Shown here one piece after another: positions 2,330 through 25,995 of a DNA stretch of 35,435 bases (positions are counted from its first letter, which is position 1; the number at the start of each line of letters is the position of its first letter). The notes below the pieces were generated by a model, which was given only the letters and a program-made list of their open reading frames with translations, searched no databases and had not been told where the DNA came from. The stretch comes from a virus. The position numbers and the translations under genes were made by a program. The DNA is taken from positions 1 through 35,435 of IMG/VR virus record IMGVR_UViG_3300032073_000096. One strand, given 5' to 3'.

Positions 2330-3274
2330 ATGCCAGATATTTCATTATGGATGTGGACGGGGTTTCTCCTCGCCGCGTATAGTGTAATTGCAAACGATTC
2401 AATCCAAACTCTTGGAACTTGGATTGCGAGCAACAAGAAAGTAAACTGGAAGATCATGTGGGGATTTGCCTCATCTGTTCTTCTTATTGCCATATGGTAT
2501 GGTTGGTGGGCATACGACGGAGACATTTCTTACGGGAGACTCAATAAGATTCCGTTCGAGGGTGTTGAGTGGTATCAAGCACTCGCTCCAGCAGTGCTGC
2601 TCGTCCTTACCCGGTTTGGTGTTCCTGTTTCTACATCATTCCTAGTGCTTTCTGCCTTTGCATCGACCGTAGTGCTACAGAAAGTTCTTATGAAGTCTAT
2701 GCTTGGGTACGCTGTTGCCGGGGTAGCGGCGTACTTTATCTGGTTGATGCTTACTCGTCTTATAGATGAAGGTAAGAGCATCAAAGACTCACATAAACGA
2801 AGATGGATAATCGCCCAGTGGGTAACTACAGGATTTCTCTGGTGGACATGGTTATCACACGACATGGCAAATATTGCCGTATATTTACCACGACAGATTC
2901 CTGTGGGAGTTATGTTCATTATATCTGCCGTTTTCGTTGGTGGCCTCGCGTGGATGCTACAACATCGAGGCGGACGAATTCAGGAAATTGTAGTACAGAA
3001 AAAAAATACTAAATATGTACGTTCTGCTACCTTGATTGATTTGTTTTACTTTGTTATACTATACATCTTCAAGGAAGTGAATGACATTCCTATGTCAACG
3101 ACTTGGGTATTTGTTGGGTTGCTTACTGGTAGAGAACTGGCGATCGCCTCCTATCGACAGAAGGATGGAATCAAGAAAGTGTTTCCGATTGTAGGGAAAG
3201 ACTTCTTGAAGTTAATGGTAGGACTCGCGGCGTCTGTTATTATTGTATTAATTGTTCAGAATGCAAAGGATTGA
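2330..3274 (+). CDS. Polytopic membrane protein with PiT-type phosphate-transporter-like motifs
   Basis: The 314-aa product has about nine or ten hydrophobic segments, so it is an integral inner-membrane protein. Residues 21-30 (ANDSIQTLGT) resemble the GANDVANAxGT signature of inorganic phosphate transporters of the PiT family, and residues 96-104 (FGVPVSTSF) resemble the following G(L/V)PxSTTH motif. In PiT proteins these occur in the same order, separated by a transmembrane helix and loop. The second PiT repeat is not evident and the C-terminal half looks unrelated. SD-like AAAGG precedes the ATG, which starts 2 nt after the primase stop. Membrane location is solid; transport of phosphate is an inference from two short motifs. 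Confidence 0.6.
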   Translation: MPDISLWMWTGFLLAAYSVIANDSIQTLGTWIASNKKVNWKIMWGFASSVLLIAIWYGWWAYDGDISYGRLNKIPFEGVEWYQALAPAVLLVLTRFGVPVSTSFLVLSAFASTVVLQKVLMKSMLGYAVAGVAAYFIWLMLTRLIDEGKSIKDSHKRRWIIAQWVTTGFLWWTWLSHDMANIAVYLPRQIPVGVMFIISAVFVGGLAWMLQHRGGRIQEIVVQKKNTKYVRSATLIDLFYFVILYIFKEVNDIPMSTTWVFVGLLTGRELAIASYRQKDGIKKVFPIVGKDFLKLMVGLAASVIIVLIVQNAKD

Positions 3275-4032: not shown

Positions 4033-5988
4033 ATGGATTCATTACCTAGTTTGTATCAAGATTTTATTCACCTGAGTCGCTACTCTCGCTGGTTACCAGA
4101 AGAGAACAGAAGAGAAACATGGGAAGAAACGGTTAAACGCTATTTCGATTTCTTTACATGGCATCTAGATGAATATCATTCATACAAGGTATCTGCTTCA
4201 GAAAGAAAAGAATTAGAAGAAGCAGTATTGAACTTGGAGGTTATGCCTTCAATGAGAGCATTGATGACTGCCGGTGAAGCACTTAAGAGAGATAATGTTG
4301 CAGGATATAATTGCTCATACTTAAGTGCGGGTAGAGTCCGTTCGTTCGATGAAATTCTATATATTCTCATGTGTGGTACTGGTGTCGGTTTCAGTGTTGA
4401 ACGTGACTTCCTTGATAAACTACCCACGATTGCTGAAGGATTCGAGGACAGTGATACTACAATCGTTGTACAAGACAGTAAGATGGGTTGGGCGAAGTCT
4501 TATAAAGAACTCACCTCGCTTCTTATTGGAGGTCAAGTTCCGAAATGGGACTTGTCAAAGATTCGACCTGCCGGCGCGAGACTCAAAACTTTCGGTGGTC
4601 GTGCTTCGGGGCCAGCACCACTGGACGATCTATTCCGATTCACAGTGGACACCTATAAAAAGGCTGTTGGAAGAAAACTCACATCAATCGAGTGTCACGA
4701 TATCATCTGTAAGATTGCTGAAGTGGTCGTTGTGGGGGGAGTACGTCGAAGTGCCCTTATCTCACTCTCTTCGCTTACCGATGAGCGGATGCGTGATGCG
4801 AAGCACGGACAGTGGTGGATTTCCGATCCGCAAAGAGCATTATCGAACAACTCGGTTTCGTACAAAACTAAACCAGAAGTAGGTACGTTCATGGAGGAAT
4901 GGATTTCTCTTTATAAGAGTAAGTCAGGTGAACGTGGTATCTTTAATAGAGAAGCAGCACAGAGTCAGATTGAACGAGCAAACGAGTTCCGGAGTTCCCT
5001 TGGTGATGGATTTGTACTCAGAGAATCAAATCATAATTTTGGTACAAACCCATGCAGCGAGATCATTCTAAGAGATAGAGAATTCTGCAACCTAACTGAA
5101 ATCGTTGTCCGTGGTGATGATACCGTAGAGTCTCTAGAGAGAAAGGTACGCCTTGCCACTATTCTTGGAACATGGCAGTCTACTCTTACCAACTTCAAAT
5201 ACCTCTCAAGTGAGTGGGAAAAGAACTGCGAAGAAGAACGACTTCTTGGTGTGTCTTTGACTGGTATCATGGATAGTTCGTTGTTAAATGGGAAGAGTAA
5301 AGGACTTGAAGAACGACTTGAACAAATGAAAAAGGTTTCAGTTGTTACTAATAAGCAAATTGCCAAGAAGTTACACATTAATGCCTCCGCAAGTATCACA
5401 TGTGTTAAGCCTAGTGGTACAGTTTCGCAGTTGGTTGATGCCGCATCTGGTATTCATGCAAGACATAATGATTATTATATTCGTACTGTTCGTGCGGACA
5501 TCAAGGATCCTCTGTGTGAGTTCATGAAGGACAAGGGATTCCCATGTGAACCCGATGTTATGAAACCGGATAACACTATGGTATTTTCTTTCCCCATGAA
5601 ATCACCAAAGAATGCCGTTTGCAGAAAAGATCTAACAGCAATCGAACAACTAGAACTTTGGTTGTCCTATCAGAAGTATTGGTGTGAACATAAACCTTCA
5701 ATCACCGTTACTGTGAAAGAAGATGAATGGTTTACAGTTGGTGCCTGGGTCTATGAGAATTTCGATGAAGTTTGTGGTGTTTCTTTCCTACCATATTCCG
5801 ATCATAGTTACAAGCAAGCACCATATCAAGATTGTACCAAGGAAGAATATCAGGTAGCATTGAAGAAGATGCCAAAGGATATAGACTGGTCTGCAATGGT
5901 TAAGTATGAGACCGAAGATAATACTTCGGGTTCTCAGACATATGCCTGTAGTGGAAATTCTTGTGAAATAGTTGACTTAACTGGTTGA
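4033..5988 (+). CDS. nrdJ: Adenosylcobalamin-dependent (class II, monomeric) ribonucleotide reductase
   Basis: Reduces ribonucleotides to deoxyribonucleotides using a B12-generated radical, so it works without oxygen and without a small subunit. The 651-aa length and sequence match the monomeric Lactobacillus RTPR-type family. Visible motifs are VAGYNCSYL (first redox cysteine), the active-site NPCSEI at 339-344, REFCNLTEI (partner cysteine), ASITCVKPSGTVSQL, and a C-terminal ACSGNSC cysteine pair that re-reduces the active site. The SD-like ACGGAG is about 6 nt before the ATG. Dependence on cobalamin means the host must make or import B12. A CobS-like protein is encoded 26 kb away, but a functional link is not shown. 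Confidence 0.94.
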   Translation: MDSLPSLYQDFIHLSRYSRWLPEENRRETWEETVKRYFDFFTWHLDEYHSYKVSASERKELEEAVLNLEVMPSMRALMTAGEALKRDNVAGYNCSYLSAGRVRSFDEILYILMCGTGVGFSVERDFLDKLPTIAEGFEDSDTTIVVQDSKMGWAKSYKELTSLLIGGQVPKWDLSKIRPAGARLKTFGGRASGPAPLDDLFRFTVDTYKKAVGRKLTSIECHDIICKIAEVVVVGGVRRSALISLSSLTDERMRDAKHGQWWISDPQRALSNNSVSYKTKPEVGTFMEEWISLYKSKSGERGIFNREAAQSQIERANEFRSSLGDGFVLRESNHNFGTNPCSEIILRDREFCNLTEIVVRGDDTVESLERKVRLATILGTWQSTLTNFKYLSSEWEKNCEEERLLGVSLTGIMDSSLLNGKSKGLEERLEQMKKVSVVTNKQIAKKLHINASASITCVKPSGTVSQLVDAASGIHARHNDYYIRTVRADIKDPLCEFMKDKGFPCEPDVMKPDNTMVFSFPMKSPKNAVCRKDLTAIEQLELWLSYQKYWCEHKPSITVTVKEDEWFTVGAWVYENFDEVCGVSFLPYSDHSYKQAPYQDCTKEEYQVALKKMPKDIDWSAMVKYETEDNTSGSQTYACSGNSCEIVDLTG

Positions 5989-5994
5989 TTGGGG

Positions 5995-6023
5995 TTGACT
6001 AGCGAAAACTTTTGCTATATACT
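5995..6023 (+). promoter_or_regulatory. Sigma70-type promoter for the small membrane peptide-porin unit
   Basis: TTGACT at 5995-6000 and TATACT at 6018-6023 are separated by exactly 17 nt, just after the RNR stop. Predicted start is near 6030. It would drive the 66-aa protein and the porin up to the terminator near 7500. Confidence 0.8.
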
Positions 6024-6041
6024 CTACTTAACTTTTTAATC

Positions 6042-6061
6042 GGGGTGCAGCAATGCACCCC
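6042..6061 (+). promoter_or_regulatory. Perfect 8-bp hairpin with GCAA tetraloop in the 5' leader
   Basis: GGGGTGCA (6042-6049), loop GCAA and TGCACCCC (6054-6061) form a GNRA-capped stem starting about 12 nt after the predicted transcription start. A second small stem (GTCTC 6073-6077 with GAGAC 6083-6087) follows before the ribosome site. It may stabilise the porin mRNA. The short T5 run after it could also make it a weak attenuator of upstream transcripts. Confidence 0.6.
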
Positions 6062-6114
6062 ACACTTTTTGAGTCTCAATTCGAGACATTGCCCTAATAT
6101 AAGGAGAAAAAATT

Positions 6115-6315
6115 ATGGCTACAAGTAAAAGTGAATGTGATGTTTCTAAATGTTGTAAAGAAGATGTTGTGACGAGGACACTGGGTAAGTTCGGTATCTG
6201 CCGATCCATGCTCATCACTCTTGCACTTGTTCCCTTCGCCTGGGAAGGCGTTGTTTGGGGTGCAAGCGCCGTTAAGTCCCTCTGGGACGCCGCTACTTCC
6301 GCAGTGGGTTCTTGA
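6115..6315 (+). CDS. Small membrane protein of unknown function (66 aa)
   Basis: Not recognised. The first 30 residues are polar and cysteine-bearing (four Cys, including CC at 14-15), followed by a hydrophobic stretch around 32-55 that could be a membrane segment, then a short amphipathic tail. A strong AAGGAG site (6101-6106) lies 8 nt before the ATG. It is the first gene after a sigma70-type promoter and structured leader and is followed 23 nt later by the porin gene, so it is probably made abundantly with the porin. A role in porin delivery or host-envelope change is speculative. Confidence 0.7.
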   Translation: MATSKSECDVSKCCKEDVVTRTLGKFGICRSMLITLALVPFAWEGVVWGASAVKSLWDAATSAVGS

Positions 6316-6338
6316 TAACCCCATAAAGGAGATTTCTT

Positions 6339-7451
6339 ATGAACAAAAAGAAATGGACAATTTACGGTGGTATTGTTGTTGCAATCGCAGCAGCATCTAT
6401 TGCCGTACCTGCTCTTGCTGACGACATGACTCCTGCACAACTTCGTGCAGAAGCAGATCGTATTGAAATGGCACAAGACAGAGCAGAAATGACTCAGGCA
6501 GTAGTGCGAGATGTACTCGCAGATGCAAATTCCCGTACCACGTTCCGAGGTGGAGATGCCCCGGTAACCGTGAATGTACATGGGTTTGTTCAAACTCGCT
6601 TTTCCTATAGCGGGGGCGGTGGACTTGATGCCGAACACGGTTTCAGTGTTCCCCGTGCAAGACTTATCCTTTCTGGCGATTTATTCGACTGGGAGTATAA
6701 GGTAAGCGGTCAATGGAGTGACAGCACTAATACTTTCGATCTCAAGGATGCATATGCACAAGGAGATCTATTCGACGGAACTTTCCGAGTAGGACAGTTC
6801 AAATCACCCTTTATGCGTGAGGTTCTTGTTGCTCAACAGGACACTCTCATGACTGATCGTTCCATTGTTTCCAACCAGTTTGGACAGGGACGATCACAGG
6901 GTGTTCAGTGGAGTCGTGACTTCGGTGTACTAGATTTTGCTGGTGCATATACCGATGGTTTCAACACTGCTAACGGTGCAGGTGTTCAGAACGGACAGGC
7001 ATTTACTGCCCGTGCTGGATTCGATGCTACCGAATGGTGGAACATTGGCGCTGCCATTTCGTACAACGATCTGGTTTCGTCTGACTACCTTACATACACT
7101 GTTGATACTAAGGTATCAACTGGTGGTCTTGACTTGACTGCTGCATACGTTGCAACTAGCGGTGACGCTGGTGACAACTGGGGTGCAACTGTTCAAGCAG
7201 GATACTTTTGCTTCGAGGACTTCCAAGGTTTCGTTGCATATGAGTATGGTGATCTCGAAGGAGTCACCGAAAATCTAAGCACAATTACTGTTGGTGGAAA
7301 TTACTTCTTCAACAACAATGTCAAGTGGACAACCGACTTTGGTTATGCACTGAACGGCATTAGCGGTGCTTGGGATCTTGGAGAAACTGGTTGGCGTGCA
7401 GGTGACTCTGGTGAGTACATCGTTCGCACTCAGATTCAGGTTTCTTTCTGA
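6339..7451 (+). CDS. Outer-membrane porin of the phosphate-selective OprO/OprP type
   Basis: Predicted outer-membrane beta-barrel channel. It has a classic signal peptide with a basic start, hydrophobic core and ALA-DD cleavage site near residue 27. A short helical, Gln/Glu/Ala-rich segment follows, typical of porins with an N-terminal coiled coil. The barrel then begins with HGFVQTRFSY. Family landmarks are VPRARLILSGDLFDWEYKV, LKDAYAQGDLFDGTFRVGQF, KSPFMREVL and MTDRS, which match the Porin_O_P family pattern, and the protein ends in the terminal phenylalanine (QIQVSF) that the Bam machinery recognises. Length (370 aa) is typical. GGAG lies upstream of the ATG. Anion or phosphate selectivity is inferred only from family resemblance. 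Confidence 0.9.
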   Translation: MNKKKWTIYGGIVVAIAAASIAVPALADDMTPAQLRAEADRIEMAQDRAEMTQAVVRDVLADANSRTTFRGGDAPVTVNVHGFVQTRFSYSGGGGLDAEHGFSVPRARLILSGDLFDWEYKVSGQWSDSTNTFDLKDAYAQGDLFDGTFRVGQFKSPFMREVLVAQQDTLMTDRSIVSNQFGQGRSQGVQWSRDFGVLDFAGAYTDGFNTANGAGVQNGQAFTARAGFDATEWWNIGAAISYNDLVSSDYLTYTVDTKVSTGGLDLTAAYVATSGDAGDNWGATVQAGYFCFEDFQGFVAYEYGDLEGVTENLSTITVGGNYFFNNNVKWTTDFGYALNGISGAWDLGETGWRAGDSGEYIVRTQIQVSF

Positions 7452-7478: not shown

Positions 7479-7512
7479 AAAAACACCCCTGTTCTCGTGC
7501 AGGGGTGTTTTT
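7479..7512 (+). terminator. Rho-independent terminator after the porin gene
   Basis: A 13-bp perfect stem (AAAAACACCCCTG at 7479-7491 with CAGGGGTGTTTTT at 7500-7512) with an 8-nt loop and the T-run contained in its 3' arm. The 5' A-run means it could also act on the opposite strand. Confidence 0.9.
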
Positions 7513-13192: not shown

Positions 13193-16100
13193 TTACTTGA
13201 TCCTATTAAATTTCTCGTCTAGACTATTTATAGTCATAAAAGGTGTGTGTTTAGTGAGTTTCTTTCTTAGGGCGTCAGTACCATACTCGCCCGCACCACC
13301 TTCTTCATTTGTCTTGTTGTTTCCAATTCCTCTGTTTCTTGATGCAGAAGTTATTTGGATATTGTCGGACGAGTTATTTAAAGGGTTTCCATCTTTGTGG
13401 TGAACATCTTTACCGTCTCCAACTTTCAACTGACCTTTTCTAATTTTCTTATTTCTCAAACTGGTTCTAGAACTTCGTTTGGCTCTTTGCTCTGATGTAC
13501 GATTATATTCCTTCTGACGTTTAGCACGACGAACCGGATCCTCATCTTCAGACAGTGAGTTTAAAAATTCTAGTTCATCTCGTAAATCAGCGTAGTTGTC
13601 TTCACCAATCTCTATGCGTTCATAACCATCAGTCCATCTCAACACTTCTTTGATTACGTTACCAGTGTCACCTAATCTCGGTAGTATAGTTTCGAGGACA
13701 TGATTATAATCGATGAAGAGTTCTTCACCTTCTTCAATATCTTCTGTTGCAACCGTGTAGAAGTTACCGTCAACCTCTTCCAATCTAAGATTGGGGTGAC
13801 GACTGTGGTTGGTTAGACGACAGAAATCTGTTCTCTGGTATTGTGGAACATCTTCTGTGATGTTAAGATAATACATTCCTAACATCTCACCATTTTCGAC
13901 ATTCTCCGTGGCAAAACTACCAAGTCCATGTCGATCTGACTCTTTAAACTCATAGGAATTCTTTAGAGTTGCGATGTTGGTTTTCTTGTTGTAGTTGTAT
14001 TGACTAGGGGACTTACCATCCTTCTTTGCTGCACGATCTTTTGCACGTTCACCAGCAGACATGCTGTTTCTTTTCTTGCCTTTGTCTGTTAGTTGTTGAC
14101 TGCCTTTCTTTAGCACACCATTCTTCTGGAGAGAGGCGTTTGCGATGGCATATGCAGCGTCCTTCGACTTACCCTTTGCCATGAGTTGCTGTACTAGACG
14201 ATCAAGGATCTCTGGTTCCCTCAGTAACTGAACAGATTCCTCTACGGTTTCTGTGTCGTCTTCGCCCTCATTGTAATCGACATCCTTTTCAATTGGAATT
14301 CTCTTAGTCATACCATTGATTACGATGTCGGTGTATTCACCAGACTCTTCGACGTTGAGATCAGCAAGGTTGATAGAACTGGTGTCAATTGAATCTACTT
14401 CAATACCAAGGAACTCTTGAAGTCTGCCTGGATCTGATCCAATATACTTCGTTGCCTTATTCATGTATTCTTTAAAGTTTTCGTCACCTTCGTTCATCAT
14501 CCTATTAGCAACCCATTCAAACGCTTCTTTTGTATCTGTAAATCCCTTGGCTTTAACAATCATACCAAGTGCTGACCAATAAGAATATGAACCAGTCTTC
14601 TGTCTCTGGGAAGATTTGAATCTGGTAAGAATGTTTAGGTTTGCAGGGAGTGCAACTTTATCGATATAGTCAGGATCAATTTGGATAAGTTTAGATTTGG
14701 TTCCGTCTCTGTTCATCGATAGAACGTGTGTTGCACACGCATCAGAGTCTTTACCAAACTTCATCTCTCCTGTCATTGATTCGTGAATGATCGCACGTTT
14801 AAACACTGTGCTACTTTCCATTAGTTCTGAGAACTTTTGGGTATGTTCCTTGTGGAGATCGTCGATTTCTTTCAGTCCTTTGATATCTCCTTCTTTTTCC
14901 CCACCAGCAAGGAATTTGCTTACTTTGTTTTCGCCTGCTGATCCTGTGGGTGTTTGTGCCGTTGTTACCCACGATTCTTGCATTTCTTTTAGTAGACCCT
15001 GTACTGCTTTTCTAGTCTTTGGTTCTTTTTTCAGTTCGTCGCCGTGCTTGTCCAAGATGTTTTCTAGAGTTGCTCGTGCTTCGCCTAACTTTGCAGACAT
15101 GAGTTGTGCATCGCCACATTTTACCGATACGCGAATATTTTCCCCAGTCTTTTTATTCTTAAGCATCAAGTCTGTTTTTGGTGTGCTATCAGTCCCGCCT
15201 TTATCTGACCATGCACTCGTCAGTGGTTCGCTGGATCTACCAAAGTGAACTGCTTCATAGTCCGCAGCATCCCCACCAAGTTGCTCCTTGATAGTATCTA
15301 CAAGTCTTCTGGAAGAATCTTTTAGTGTTTCACTTTGTTTAATTTTTTGCTGATCTGTGTCTGATATTAAACCGACTTTACTGTCATGTTCATGATCATC
15401 ATTCCACACATCAACAAATCCTGCTTCCATGTCTACTGCTTTGTGATCCCAGTCAGGAAAGAGAGAACCCTTACCCTGAATAGTTTTACCATTCTTGGGT
15501 ACACGTTTTGCAGGGGTTAATTCCGGTGCAGGCATTTCTTCGGGTTGTTGCATTTGTCCCTGTTGATCCGGGGACTGTTGCGTGTTTGCGCCTTGTCTCT
15601 TATCTGCTACCTGTTGCTGCGCCTGTTGCGCCATTGATTTCTTTTGTTGTTCCCATCCGAGTAATTTCTTCGCAGTTGATGTCCACTTGAAGTCCGGATC
15701 AACCGCGAGTCTGCCTGCTTTACCTGCATTGAGTTTACCTTTAGGTTTCTCACCCGGTGCAGATCCTGCAATAACTTCTGAGTGTTGATCTGGACTATAA
15801 TCTTGTCCAAGAATAATTTTAATCTTGTCTTGATTATCTCTTACTGCTATAACTGAGTCCCACGGATTAGTTGATGCACGTTCCCCACGTTTTCTAGCAG
15901 CGTCTCTTTCCTTGGGATCCGATGTACCATTACCTCGATCCTGTTCTCGTTCTACTTTACGTCGTCTTGCTTCCTGATCGACGGAAGATACTTCGTTGAT
16001 CATACTGAGGAAGTCTACGTCCATACTCTCTACTGCCTTTGCGGGATCGTTTGTTGTCATTCTTTGTCTCACCTGTTGAAGTCGTTCGGTTTCTGCTTTC

Positions 16101-16999
16101 TTCATCTGTGGAACCAATTTCTTTGATATGCGTGCGATAGCAGCCTTTTTCTTCTGTACCTTCTTGCCAATCTTTTCTCGCTCTTGGAACGATACATCAG
16201 ACCATTTTCTATCACCAAGGATCTTTTTGCGAATGAGTTTGACTGCTTCTTTTCCTGCTTTCGCCTTGATTTGATCTGAACCCTTGCGTCGTTTTTCTTT
16301 CATCTTCCTTGCACGCATTCGCCTTTTTGCAGTCTTCTTAGCGGCACGTTGTAGTTTGCGTCTACCCTGTGTGCTTAGTTCGTTGATTGCCTCTTCTCGG
16401 AACTCGACGAACTCTTCATGATTGAACCACGACTCTGCTATAAAAGGCTTAATTCCCATTCCTTTTTGTACGGCCGCAAAGAGTCCTTTACTATCCCTTT
16501 CACTCATGTGAGTGGGAAGACCTAGGAGGAATGCTTGATAGTTTCCTTCTGCCGCGGCACCACGCATCTTTGATGCAGACATACCTTCAACGCCTTCCGC
16601 ATCAGGATCTCTATCTCCTGCGGATACTACCTCGAAGTTAGTAAACATATATTCTTTGCCAATATACTTGGGGATTTGCTTTTGGAACTCAGCAACTCGA
16701 TCACCACCGACTACCATAGTGACATCGGTGTATCCTGCATCGCTTAGTTTCTTGAGTAGTACGAATGGCGTATTCGCCTTGGCATCAACAGAGACATTGA
16801 ATCCTTTAAGCACTTTCTTCATGTACTTTTCTTTGTCTCTCGCAGACAAAGGATTCTTTTTCTTGTCGGTGCTGCTACTACCGAAGATAGCATGTTCTGC
16901 ACCGCGCCGTCTTGCTTCTTCTTTTACTTTAGTCGCCAGTAATAAATGTCCCGTGGTGGGGGGATTGAATCTGCCAAATGTAAAAACAATTTTCTTCAT
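13193..16999 (-). CDS. 1268-aa multidomain protein: nucleotidyltransferase, nuclease-like, SET and HNH-like regions
   Basis: Residues 1-185 are a nucleotidyltransferase of the NMN-adenylyl/cytidylyltransferase fold: GRFNPPTTGH (9-18) and SASKMR (141-146) are its two nucleotide-binding motifs. A long Arg/Lys-rich helical region follows. Around 600-660 TPKTDL ... RVSVKCG resembles a PD-(D/E)XK nuclease core. Around 960-1010 lies a helical module (DAAYAIANASLQ). Residues about 1016-1100 read as a SET domain (GLGSFATENVENGE, NHSRHPN, FIDYN), as in lysine methyltransferases. Around 1199-1209 VHHKDGNPLNN is HNH-like. The ATG at 16999 has GGAGG 9 nt upstream. Possibly a packaged or proteolytically processed polyprotein; that is inference. 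Confidence 0.8.
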   Translation of the reverse strand: MKKIVFTFGRFNPPTTGHLLLATKVKEEARRRGAEHAIFGSSSTDKKKNPLSARDKEKYMKKVLKGFNVSVDAKANTPFVLLKKLSDAGYTDVTMVVGGDRVAEFQKQIPKYIGKEYMFTNFEVVSAGDRDPDAEGVEGMSASKMRGAAAEGNYQAFLLGLPTHMSERDSKGLFAAVQKGMGIKPFIAESWFNHEEFVEFREEAINELSTQGRRKLQRAAKKTAKRRMRARKMKEKRRKGSDQIKAKAGKEAVKLIRKKILGDRKWSDVSFQEREKIGKKVQKKKAAIARISKKLVPQMKKAETERLQQVRQRMTTNDPAKAVESMDVDFLSMINEVSSVDQEARRRKVEREQDRGNGTSDPKERDAARKRGERASTNPWDSVIAVRDNQDKIKIILGQDYSPDQHSEVIAGSAPGEKPKGKLNAGKAGRLAVDPDFKWTSTAKKLLGWEQQKKSMAQQAQQQVADKRQGANTQQSPDQQGQMQQPEEMPAPELTPAKRVPKNGKTIQGKGSLFPDWDHKAVDMEAGFVDVWNDDHEHDSKVGLISDTDQQKIKQSETLKDSSRRLVDTIKEQLGGDAADYEAVHFGRSSEPLTSAWSDKGGTDSTPKTDLMLKNKKTGENIRVSVKCGDAQLMSAKLGEARATLENILDKHGDELKKEPKTRKAVQGLLKEMQESWVTTAQTPTGSAGENKVSKFLAGGEKEGDIKGLKEIDDLHKEHTQKFSELMESSTVFKRAIIHESMTGEMKFGKDSDACATHVLSMNRDGTKSKLIQIDPDYIDKVALPANLNILTRFKSSQRQKTGSYSYWSALGMIVKAKGFTDTKEAFEWVANRMMNEGDENFKEYMNKATKYIGSDPGRLQEFLGIEVDSIDTSSINLADLNVEESGEYTDIVINGMTKRIPIEKDVDYNEGEDDTETVEESVQLLREPEILDRLVQQLMAKGKSKDAAYAIANASLQKNGVLKKGSQQLTDKGKKRNSMSAGERAKDRAAKKDGKSPSQYNYNKKTNIATLKNSYEFKESDRHGLGSFATENVENGEMLGMYYLNITEDVPQYQRTDFCRLTNHSRHPNLRLEEVDGNFYTVATEDIEEGEELFIDYNHVLETILPRLGDTGNVIKEVLRWTDGYERIEIGEDNYADLRDELEFLNSLSEDEDPVRRAKRQKEYNRTSEQRAKRSSRTSLRNKKIRKGQLKVGDGKDVHHKDGNPLNNSSDNIQITSASRNRGIGNNKTNEEGGAGEYGTDALRKKLTKHTPFMTINSLDEKFNRIK
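13225..13232 (-). promoter_or_regulatory. T4-type late promoter
   Basis: Second perfect TATAAATA on the minus strand, 32 nt upstream of the ATG at 13192 and lying inside the 3' end of the preceding coding region. The near-identical spacing to the site at 12540 supports function. Confidence 0.65.
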
Positions 17000-17028
17000 A
17001 GCGTTAAGCCTCCGATTATTATATGTAT

Positions 17029-17063
17029 AAAAACAGGAGAGCATACATAGGTACACTCTCCTG
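17029..17063 (-). terminator. Rho-independent terminator (minus strand)
   Basis: On the minus strand CAGGAGAG and CTCTCCTG form an 8-bp stem (17034-17041 with 17056-17063, 14-nt loop) followed by TTTTT. It would end a transcript coming from the 40-aa peptide gene before the large multidomain gene. Confidence 0.75.
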
Positions 17064-17072
17064 CAATTTAAT

Positions 17073-17143
17073 CCACTGACTTTCAACAACGGTATTGTTA
17101 AAATGGTTTCTCGGACCACCTCCTTTCGGTTGAAAGTCAGTGG
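17073..17143 (-). ncRNA. Putative structured RNA element with an extended anti-16S sequence in its loop
   Basis: A 15-bp perfect inverted repeat (17073-17087 with 17129-17143) encloses a 41-nt loop. On the minus strand the loop contains AAAGGAGGTGGTCC (17113-17126), which can pair with the 3' end of 16S rRNA over about 14 nt with one G-U pair. No suitably spaced start codon follows, and a terminator lies 10 nt beyond the repeat. It could be a small RNA, a 3' UTR structure of the 40-aa gene, or a ribosome-binding decoy. Confidence 0.45.
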
Positions 17144-25263: not shown

Positions 25264-25995
25264 ATGTTATTCGTAAGATCAGTCTTTATGTTACTGCTGA
25301 TCGTCGTAACTACTAGTTGTGCATCCCGTGAAAAGTTAGACGATACTAATCGTACATCAACATTTTCTCAAGAACAAACGAAATTACATTTTGATTTTAT
25401 TGAACACAGCACCATTCCTGCTGCTGGATCATTGTACAACAAAGACGACAAGTTTGTTGGTTCGTGTGTTCTTGTAACTAAAAATATTGCACTGACCGCT
25501 GCTCACTGTATTCATTATGGTGATCTTAAGTACGTTAGGTTTGGCGAAGAAAAAATACTAATCGATATGCAATTCATCCACAAGGACTATTTCTTGTCTG
25601 GTGATGACATTGGTTTACTAGCATTTTCCACTGAATCAACACACACTCCTATGCCACTATTACAGAATGTAGAAGACCTCGGTGCGATGATTCCTCTACG
25701 CACAATCGCTCATGGTGGTGGTGATAAGAAGATAAGCAAGGATGATGTGTTTAGGTTCTATGGTATACTGAAAAATAGACCAAACGAAGTCATATTTCTC
25801 CCACTCAAAACCACTGTCTGGTTCGGTGATTCTGGTGGTGCCTTAGTCTGGGAAGATTCGGATGGAAACTATGCTCTGGTAGGAATCATCACACACTTTT
25901 CAACTGCTGATGATAAAATCTATGAGTGTGCGGCACGACGTACTGACACATTCAATCTGTGCGACGATATATGGCATCCTTGGTTTGTTGAATAG
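25264..25995 (+). CDS. Secreted trypsin-like serine protease, lipoprotein-type signal
   Basis: 243 aa. A hydrophobic leader (residues 4-16) ends in a lipobox-like TTSC (C19), so the protein is probably exported and may be lipid-anchored in the envelope. The S1 protease triad is present in order: H81 in LTAAHC, D115 in GDDIGLLAF and S190 in FGDSGGAL, with Cys pairs that could form disulfides. Family length for a minimal trypsin fold is met. No clear SD precedes the ATG; a TATACT box at 25254-25259 is close enough to suggest a leaderless transcript, though its -35 is poor. Substrate unknown; an envelope or competing-phage receptor target is conceivable. Confidence 0.85.
   Translation: MLFVRSVFMLLLIVVTTSCASREKLDDTNRTSTFSQEQTKLHFDFIEHSTIPAAGSLYNKDDKFVGSCVLVTKNIALTAAHCIHYGDLKYVRFGEEKILIDMQFIHKDYFLSGDDIGLLAFSTESTHTPMPLLQNVEDLGAMIPLRTIAHGGGDKKISKDDVFRFYGILKNRPNEVIFLPLKTTVWFGDSGGALVWEDSDGNYALVGIITHFSTADDKIYECAARRTDTFNLCDDIWHPWFVE

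Follow-up and report, generated by a model that had tools for sequence, protein, structure and literature searches.

Porins encoded by phages are already known, and one of them, associated with the IpeX RNA, has reportedly been linked to superinfection exclusion by phage PA-2. The E. coli phage transcript that includes this porin and IpeX (PMC12197685) resembles the locus described here in being a phage-borne porin unit with a regulatory RNA part, although it belongs to an enterobacterial prophage and was compared by description only. Marine PII-1 viruses carry an OmpL-like porin that has been traced to Flavobacteriales (Bacteroidetes) and is linked to glnK-amtB (PMC8115048). As in the present case, that porin lies on viral contigs from oxygen-poor ocean, is argued to be host-derived and has a promoter and a terminator near the unit; however, the link to glnK-amtB, the origin in Flavobacteriales and not Planctomycetota, and a description that mentions no counterpart of the small protein sm66 (see below) set it apart, again by description only. 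With regard to the pore, the phosphate-binding residues of OprP are R34, Y62, D94, K121, S124, S125, K126 and R133, with 47 Arg and Lys per subunit, whereas the ExtI porin has been argued to be without most of these residues though annotated as phosphate-selective (PMC5877670).

The DNA analysed here (the window) is a whole IMG/VR record of 35,435 bases, and it carries a porin for whose family a search of open-licence PubMed Central text found no description. The features on which the analysis draws are as follows.

2330-3274: PiT-like phosphate permease, 314 aa, between primase and ThyX (PHO4 matches in relatives, PDB profile match)
5995..6023, plus strand: sigma-70-like promoter TTGACT-N17-TATACT of the two-gene unit (10/12 consensus; homologous position in relatives)
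6042..6061, plus strand: leader hairpin GGGGUGCA-GCAA-UGCACCCC (fold z -4.6 for 6024-6114)
6073..6087, plus strand: second leader hairpin GUCUC-AAUUC-GAGAC (fold analysis)
6101..6106, plus strand: ribosome-binding site AAGGAG of sm66 (sequence)
6115..6315, plus strand: sm66, a small hydrophobic phage-only protein of 66 aa (neighbour of the porin in almost every relative; 179 viral loci)
6326..6331, plus strand: ribosome-binding site AAGGAG of the porin (sequence)
6339..7451, plus strand: outer-membrane porin of 370 aa with predicted OprO/P fold (ORF, relatives, Pfam family matches, model, tree)
6339..6419, plus strand: signal peptide of the porin, residues 1-27, cut after ALA (sequence; present in all complete relatives)
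6432..6536, plus strand: N-terminal helix, residues 32-66, presumably periplasmic, with an LVxDVLADAxxR-like motif (low-confidence model; motif common with Planctomycetota porins)
6573..7448, plus strand: predicted 16-strand beta-barrel, residues 79-370 (AlphaFold2 model, structural comparison)
7479..7512, plus strand: intrinsic terminator hairpin with a 14-bp stem (z -6.8)

A complete porin gene and its family

The porin reading frame is intact, from the ATG at 6339 to the stop codon at 7449-7451, and its product has a Sec-type signal peptide (MNKKKWTIYGGIVVAIAAASIAVPALA^D) and a C-terminus that ends in IQVSF with a terminal Phe, so that both marks of export by Sec and BAM (a signal peptide and a C-terminal aromatic residue) are present. 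On scanning viral contigs, relatives with 49-94% identity were found at 50 IMG/VR loci (at least 50 other viral contigs), and after correction of start codons all the complete ones possess the signal peptide and the C-terminal Phe. When used as a single query, the window porin had no match in Pfam, PHROGs, PDB sequences or 50,697 phage records, and no relatives were detected among PDB sequences even with the family alignment as query. Scanned singly, 15 of 32 viral family members matched Pfam Porin_O_P (best 3.5e-10) and six matched Porin_4. The curated cut-off of PF07396 Porin_O_P, 20.9 bits, was passed by more distant members (L024, 40.1 bits; L023, 34.9 bits; L149, 30.7 bits) and the window porin gave no match to it; its placement in Porin_O_P is therefore due to homology of the whole family and not to the single sequence. 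The sequence-only reading had proposed a complete OprO/P-like porin with signal peptide and terminal Phe, and the reading frame, the Pfam matches of the family and the predicted fold bear this out.

The viral porin family is under strong purifying selection, with dN/dS values of 0.13-0.26. The order NrdJ, small ORF, porin recurs in many viral contigs of up to 157 kb. Judged by its genes, the carrier is a T4-like phage, and its gp41-type helicase is at ~61% to those of Methylophilales phage Melnitz and cyanophages.

Some further features of the window were observed. At the position of NrdJ (window 4033-5988), relatives (L002, L003, L020, L021, L026, L031 and L032) hold either a close NrdJ with 69-83% identity or a far more divergent reductase at 28-30%, which suggests that the reductases at this position have been replaced in place. 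A trypsin-like lipoprotein is encoded at 25264-25995, away from the porin, whereas in many relatives its homologs (28-36%) are found 1-3 kb behind that gene. A 1308-aa ORF at 13193-17119 combines a SET domain with cytidylyltransferase-like and HNH parts. Between ~29500 and 34500, the G+C content rises from ~0.42 to 0.55-0.58 over peptidase/VWA-like and CobS-like (MoxR-type) genes.

Relationship to planctomycete porins

A search with two conserved peptides against one genome per species (84,980 species) detected 20 loci, which belong to Planctomycetota save for three loci from two bins, and these three fall among Planctomycetota porins in the tree. Matching porins were found in 121 of 392 Planctomycetota genomes, a sample of the phylum; the best match (G376:C1:1257350-1258627) has an E-value of 3.7e-76, and 28 of 201 genomes from the order of that genome match the porin at 1e-40 or better. 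In a careful tree with a proteobacterial outgroup, all viral porins form one clade (100/100) within the planctomycete group, and the planctomycete porins never come to lie on one side of a branch (0/200 bootstrap trees), the outgroup being thin with 3-4 non-planctomycete porins. A quick tree with more rows also showed a single viral clade, but as sister to most planctomycete porins.

The Porin_O_P-type porins of Planctomycetota resemble the viral ones in the N-terminal coil RxxEIxxLVxDVLADAxxR, in the barrel motifs GQFKxPFMxE and RSQGxQ and in the C-terminal Phe, although they are cellular, often occur in tandem arrays and have a barrel of ~352 residues as against 290 in the viral proteins. 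The viral N-terminal module WLNDTRSDEIRSLVRDVLADADARSSMIGN has a planctomycete counterpart, a stretch of 29 letters, in bacterial porins, and the LVxDVLADAxxR-like motif is present in 28/36 viral, 57/106 planctomycete and 0/4 other porins. The phylogeny that had been suggested for finding the donor lineage thus points to Planctomycetota, and on the strength of these comparisons the porin appears to have been taken from bacteria, with a planctomycete as the donor. Since the viral porins nest among those of Planctomycetota, the host of the phage is probably a planctomycete as well, a view derived from the donor of one gene. A search for a CRISPR or prophage link across 301 genomes from the best match's order yielded short chance-level matches and no DNA match of spacer quality.

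Predicted fold, loops and pore

With the family alignment as input, AlphaFold2 predicted 16 strands preceded by two helices, the signal helix and one at residues 32-66, at a mean pLDDT of 76.9 and with low confidence in the N-terminal part. The top structural matches of the model are OprP (Z 27.6 over 289 residues, 2.6 A) and OprO (Z 27.5), followed by a different protein at 25.1, in a ranking that is a realignment of the top 1000 chains from Foldseek and not an independent search. An OprO/OprP-type 16-strand fold is therefore predicted for the window porin.

With the two sides assigned from strand order, a count on the alignment gave extracellular links of 88 residues in total (87-96) in 36 viral porins versus 128 (94-208) in 96 planctomycete porins, and periplasmic links of 19 versus 39 residues. 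The lengths of the extracellular links are almost fixed among the viral porins, and no part of the protein is more conserved than loop 4 (DGFNTANGAGVQNG). As the viral porins are one clade, the shortening represents one evolutionary change, and p-values for it are not independent evidence.

The likeness to the Pseudomonas proteins OprP and OprO (PDB 2o4v, 4rjw) is one of fold over ~290 residues, at 18% identity, and does not extend to the residues that bind phosphate. On aligning the window porin to OprP 1-216, it was found that R34, Y62, D94, K121, S124, S125 and K126 are replaced by F83, R108, K136, V162, A165, Q166 and Q167, respectively, and that only one of the eight residues, R133, is kept (as R174). 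The mature porin has 17 Arg and 5 Lys (22) against 32 Asp and 13 Glu (45), and its barrel is strongly acidic, with a net charge of -19. The basic residues that line OprP, which the sequence-only reading had recommended looking for, are thus missing, and its term phosphate-type is not supported as to what passes through the pore. Phosphate selectivity of the pore was judged unlikely on these grounds; since both the binding residues and the Arg/Lys lining are missing, "phosphate-selective" would name the fold family and is not supported as a property of this porin. A weak profile match was also seen to the Geobacter ExtI porin mentioned above (NCBIfam NF040900; E 6e-6 for the window, far below the cut-off), which comes from another organism and another operon.

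Phosphate may nevertheless be taken up, since the window encodes the PiT-like permease at 2330-3274. Its product resembles PiT-type phosphate transporters but is divergent: PHO4 was matched by 7 of 16 relatives, with E-values no better than 4e-4, the window protein reached 18.5 bits, which is under the cut-off, and the sole PDB match of the family profile was the phosphate transporter 6l85 (E 2e-4). The gene occurs at no fewer than 486 viral loci, with 64-99% identity among the best 80 of these at least 486. Most porin-bearing contigs are without it, and as it is absent even from the large ones (126-157 kb), the porin and the permease are not obligate partners.

The two-gene unit and its expression signals

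The stop codon of sm66 lies 23 bases 5' of the porin. The protein has Cys and basic residues N-terminally and one hydrophobic stretch; its relatives, of 57-69 aa, share the invariant core RS....LAL.P..W.GV.W (alignment A2). Where a relative offers enough sequence, sm66 nearly always adjoins the porin, lying before it at 54 unique loci and after it at 6; one locus is cut by a contig end, and L153 was scored as negative only since the profile scan missed the first ATG, the porin following sm66 there too. In most relatives, this cassette comes after the nucleotide-metabolism genes ThyX and NrdJ. No sm66 was found in the 50,697 phage records or in the 392 Planctomycetota genomes, the latter in a search without positive control, and a host origin of the gene was set aside on the same search (0/392). 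A strict partnership with the porin is also weakened, as no porin lies beside sm66 in L129, L139, L141, L145 and L146, and sm66 also occurs on a contig of 118.5 kb in which nothing matched the porin.

At four loci, the porin slot is filled by a different protein, 253-283 aa long, which also begins with a signal peptide and ends in Phe.

L132:4204-5040, L175:4198-5046, L171:2819-3577 and L184:3059-3829: alternative barrel candidate in the porin slot

It was matched neither by the profile of the viral porins nor by any Pfam family above cut-off, and from its sequence it is a probable second outer-membrane barrel; a PiT-like gene often follows it in viruses of that type. In other loci the slot without a porin is occupied by minus-strand genes (L141:4539-5147, L145:4700-5296), and one such filler has, by eye only, a PSGHS-type motif recalling PAP2 phosphatases.

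The consensus-like promoter proposed from the sequence holds for the family and not for the window taken singly, where a 10/12 site is no better than chance. Within 240 nt upstream of sm66, a site of at least 11/12 is present at the same place in 48 of 75 unique loci (12/12 in 32 of them), whereas the rest of these loci contains few such sites, 0.0075 being expected per 240 nt. The T4 late promoter TATAAATA is rare at the cassette. The structured leader and strong terminator that had also been proposed were both confirmed against shuffles, with the z values listed above. The leader of the window (6024-6114) takes a simpler, two-hairpin form than that of many relatives, in which a different set of three covarying hairpins stands between the promoter and the start codon. 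In 20 such leaders, 99.7% of the cells pair and double compensatory changes occur at 7 of 15 pairs; their covariation score of 0.340 exceeds that of shuffles (0.146) and is lost when partners are slid. One hairpin in these relatives bears a GGAG loop on stems that vary in sequence. Rfam gave no family match for the window or for ten relatives. By eye only, the GGAG-loop leaders (L041:7658-7794, L002:1990-2118) recall CsrA/RsmA-type sites.

Discussion

The best explanation, to which we assign a probability of about 0.45, is that the two-gene unit puts a planctomycete-derived open channel into the outer membrane of the host for solute influx. The host-type sigma-70 promoter and the place among replication and nucleotide genes suggest that sm66 and the porin would be transcribed by the host RNA polymerase from their own promoter, most likely early in infection. 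The porin would have been acquired once from a planctomycete protein of the Porin_O_P type, have shed much of its loop length and since then been maintained by purifying selection. In the infected cell, probably a planctomycete, Sec and BAM would export it to the outer membrane, where we infer that an open, acidic 16-strand channel sustains or increases the inflow of small solutes (ions, phosphate, nucleosides) once host porin synthesis stops, and these solutes would serve phage DNA synthesis. Solute influx is preferred because the unit usually follows ThyX and NrdJ, and because the loops are conserved and not diversified.

Its main rival, which we consider clearly less probable, is superinfection exclusion, in which the loop-trimmed porin remodels the surface by replacing or diluting host porins that serve as phage receptors, and sm66 could block DNA entry at the inner membrane like T4 Imm. 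Receptor replacement holds this place because a short-looped porin would make a poor receptor, and the trimmed extracellular links of almost fixed length agree with it. In the case of IpeX, a phage porin transcript is on record as lowering the OmpC of its host (PMC12197685), and Imm and Sp of T4 are blockers of DNA injection (PMC11436027). However, the periplasmic turns are shortened too, so that the trimming may be mere economy, the loops (loop 4 most of all) are conserved in sequence, unlike those of receptors in an arms race, and sm66 is like Imm in size and hydrophobicity only. Phosphate-specific uptake, with an OprP-like channel feeding the phage's own PiT-like permease in the inner membrane, is improbable: OprP and OprO do lead the structural matches, the window does contain the permease gene, and such a gene lies directly behind the alternative barrel in L233-L236, L241, L242 and L184, but seven of the eight binding residues of OprP are replaced, Arg and Lys number 22 against 47, and the permease gene is missing from most porin-bearing contigs.

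A role for the barrel in lysis or release, such as a late weakening of the outer membrane, seems very unlikely. Although the unit holds two membrane proteins, its fold is that of an ordinary channel, and the host-type promoter and the surrounding replication and nucleotide genes speak for early expression. A virion protein, or host DNA assembled into a viral contig, is scarcely credible and was rejected; the sequence-only reading had named virion relatives without signal peptides and assembled host DNA as the outcomes that would overturn it, and what was found is a signal peptide in all complete relatives and the same viral context across many contigs. A wider reading, which we regard as unlikely, extends the channel to an envelope-takeover cassette of planctomycete phages, in which a very strong host-type promoter, a conserved leader RNA, sm66 as inner-membrane protein and an interchangeable outer-membrane barrel would re-fit both membranes, and the GGAG-loop leader may be the target of a regulator or may itself affect host porin mRNAs.

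To our knowledge, lytic phages are usually thought to spare the outer membrane until lysis. Here, a porin with its own promoter and leader is retained in a T4-like marine lineage across a long divergence (~50% protein identity). A search of open-licence PubMed Central text found no description of planctomycete phages, and the probable planctomycete origin of the porin provides a host hypothesis for phages of that phylum. Lastly, the trimmed and length-fixed loops bring together two old ideas, nutrient influx and receptor replacement, which could be tested with one construct.
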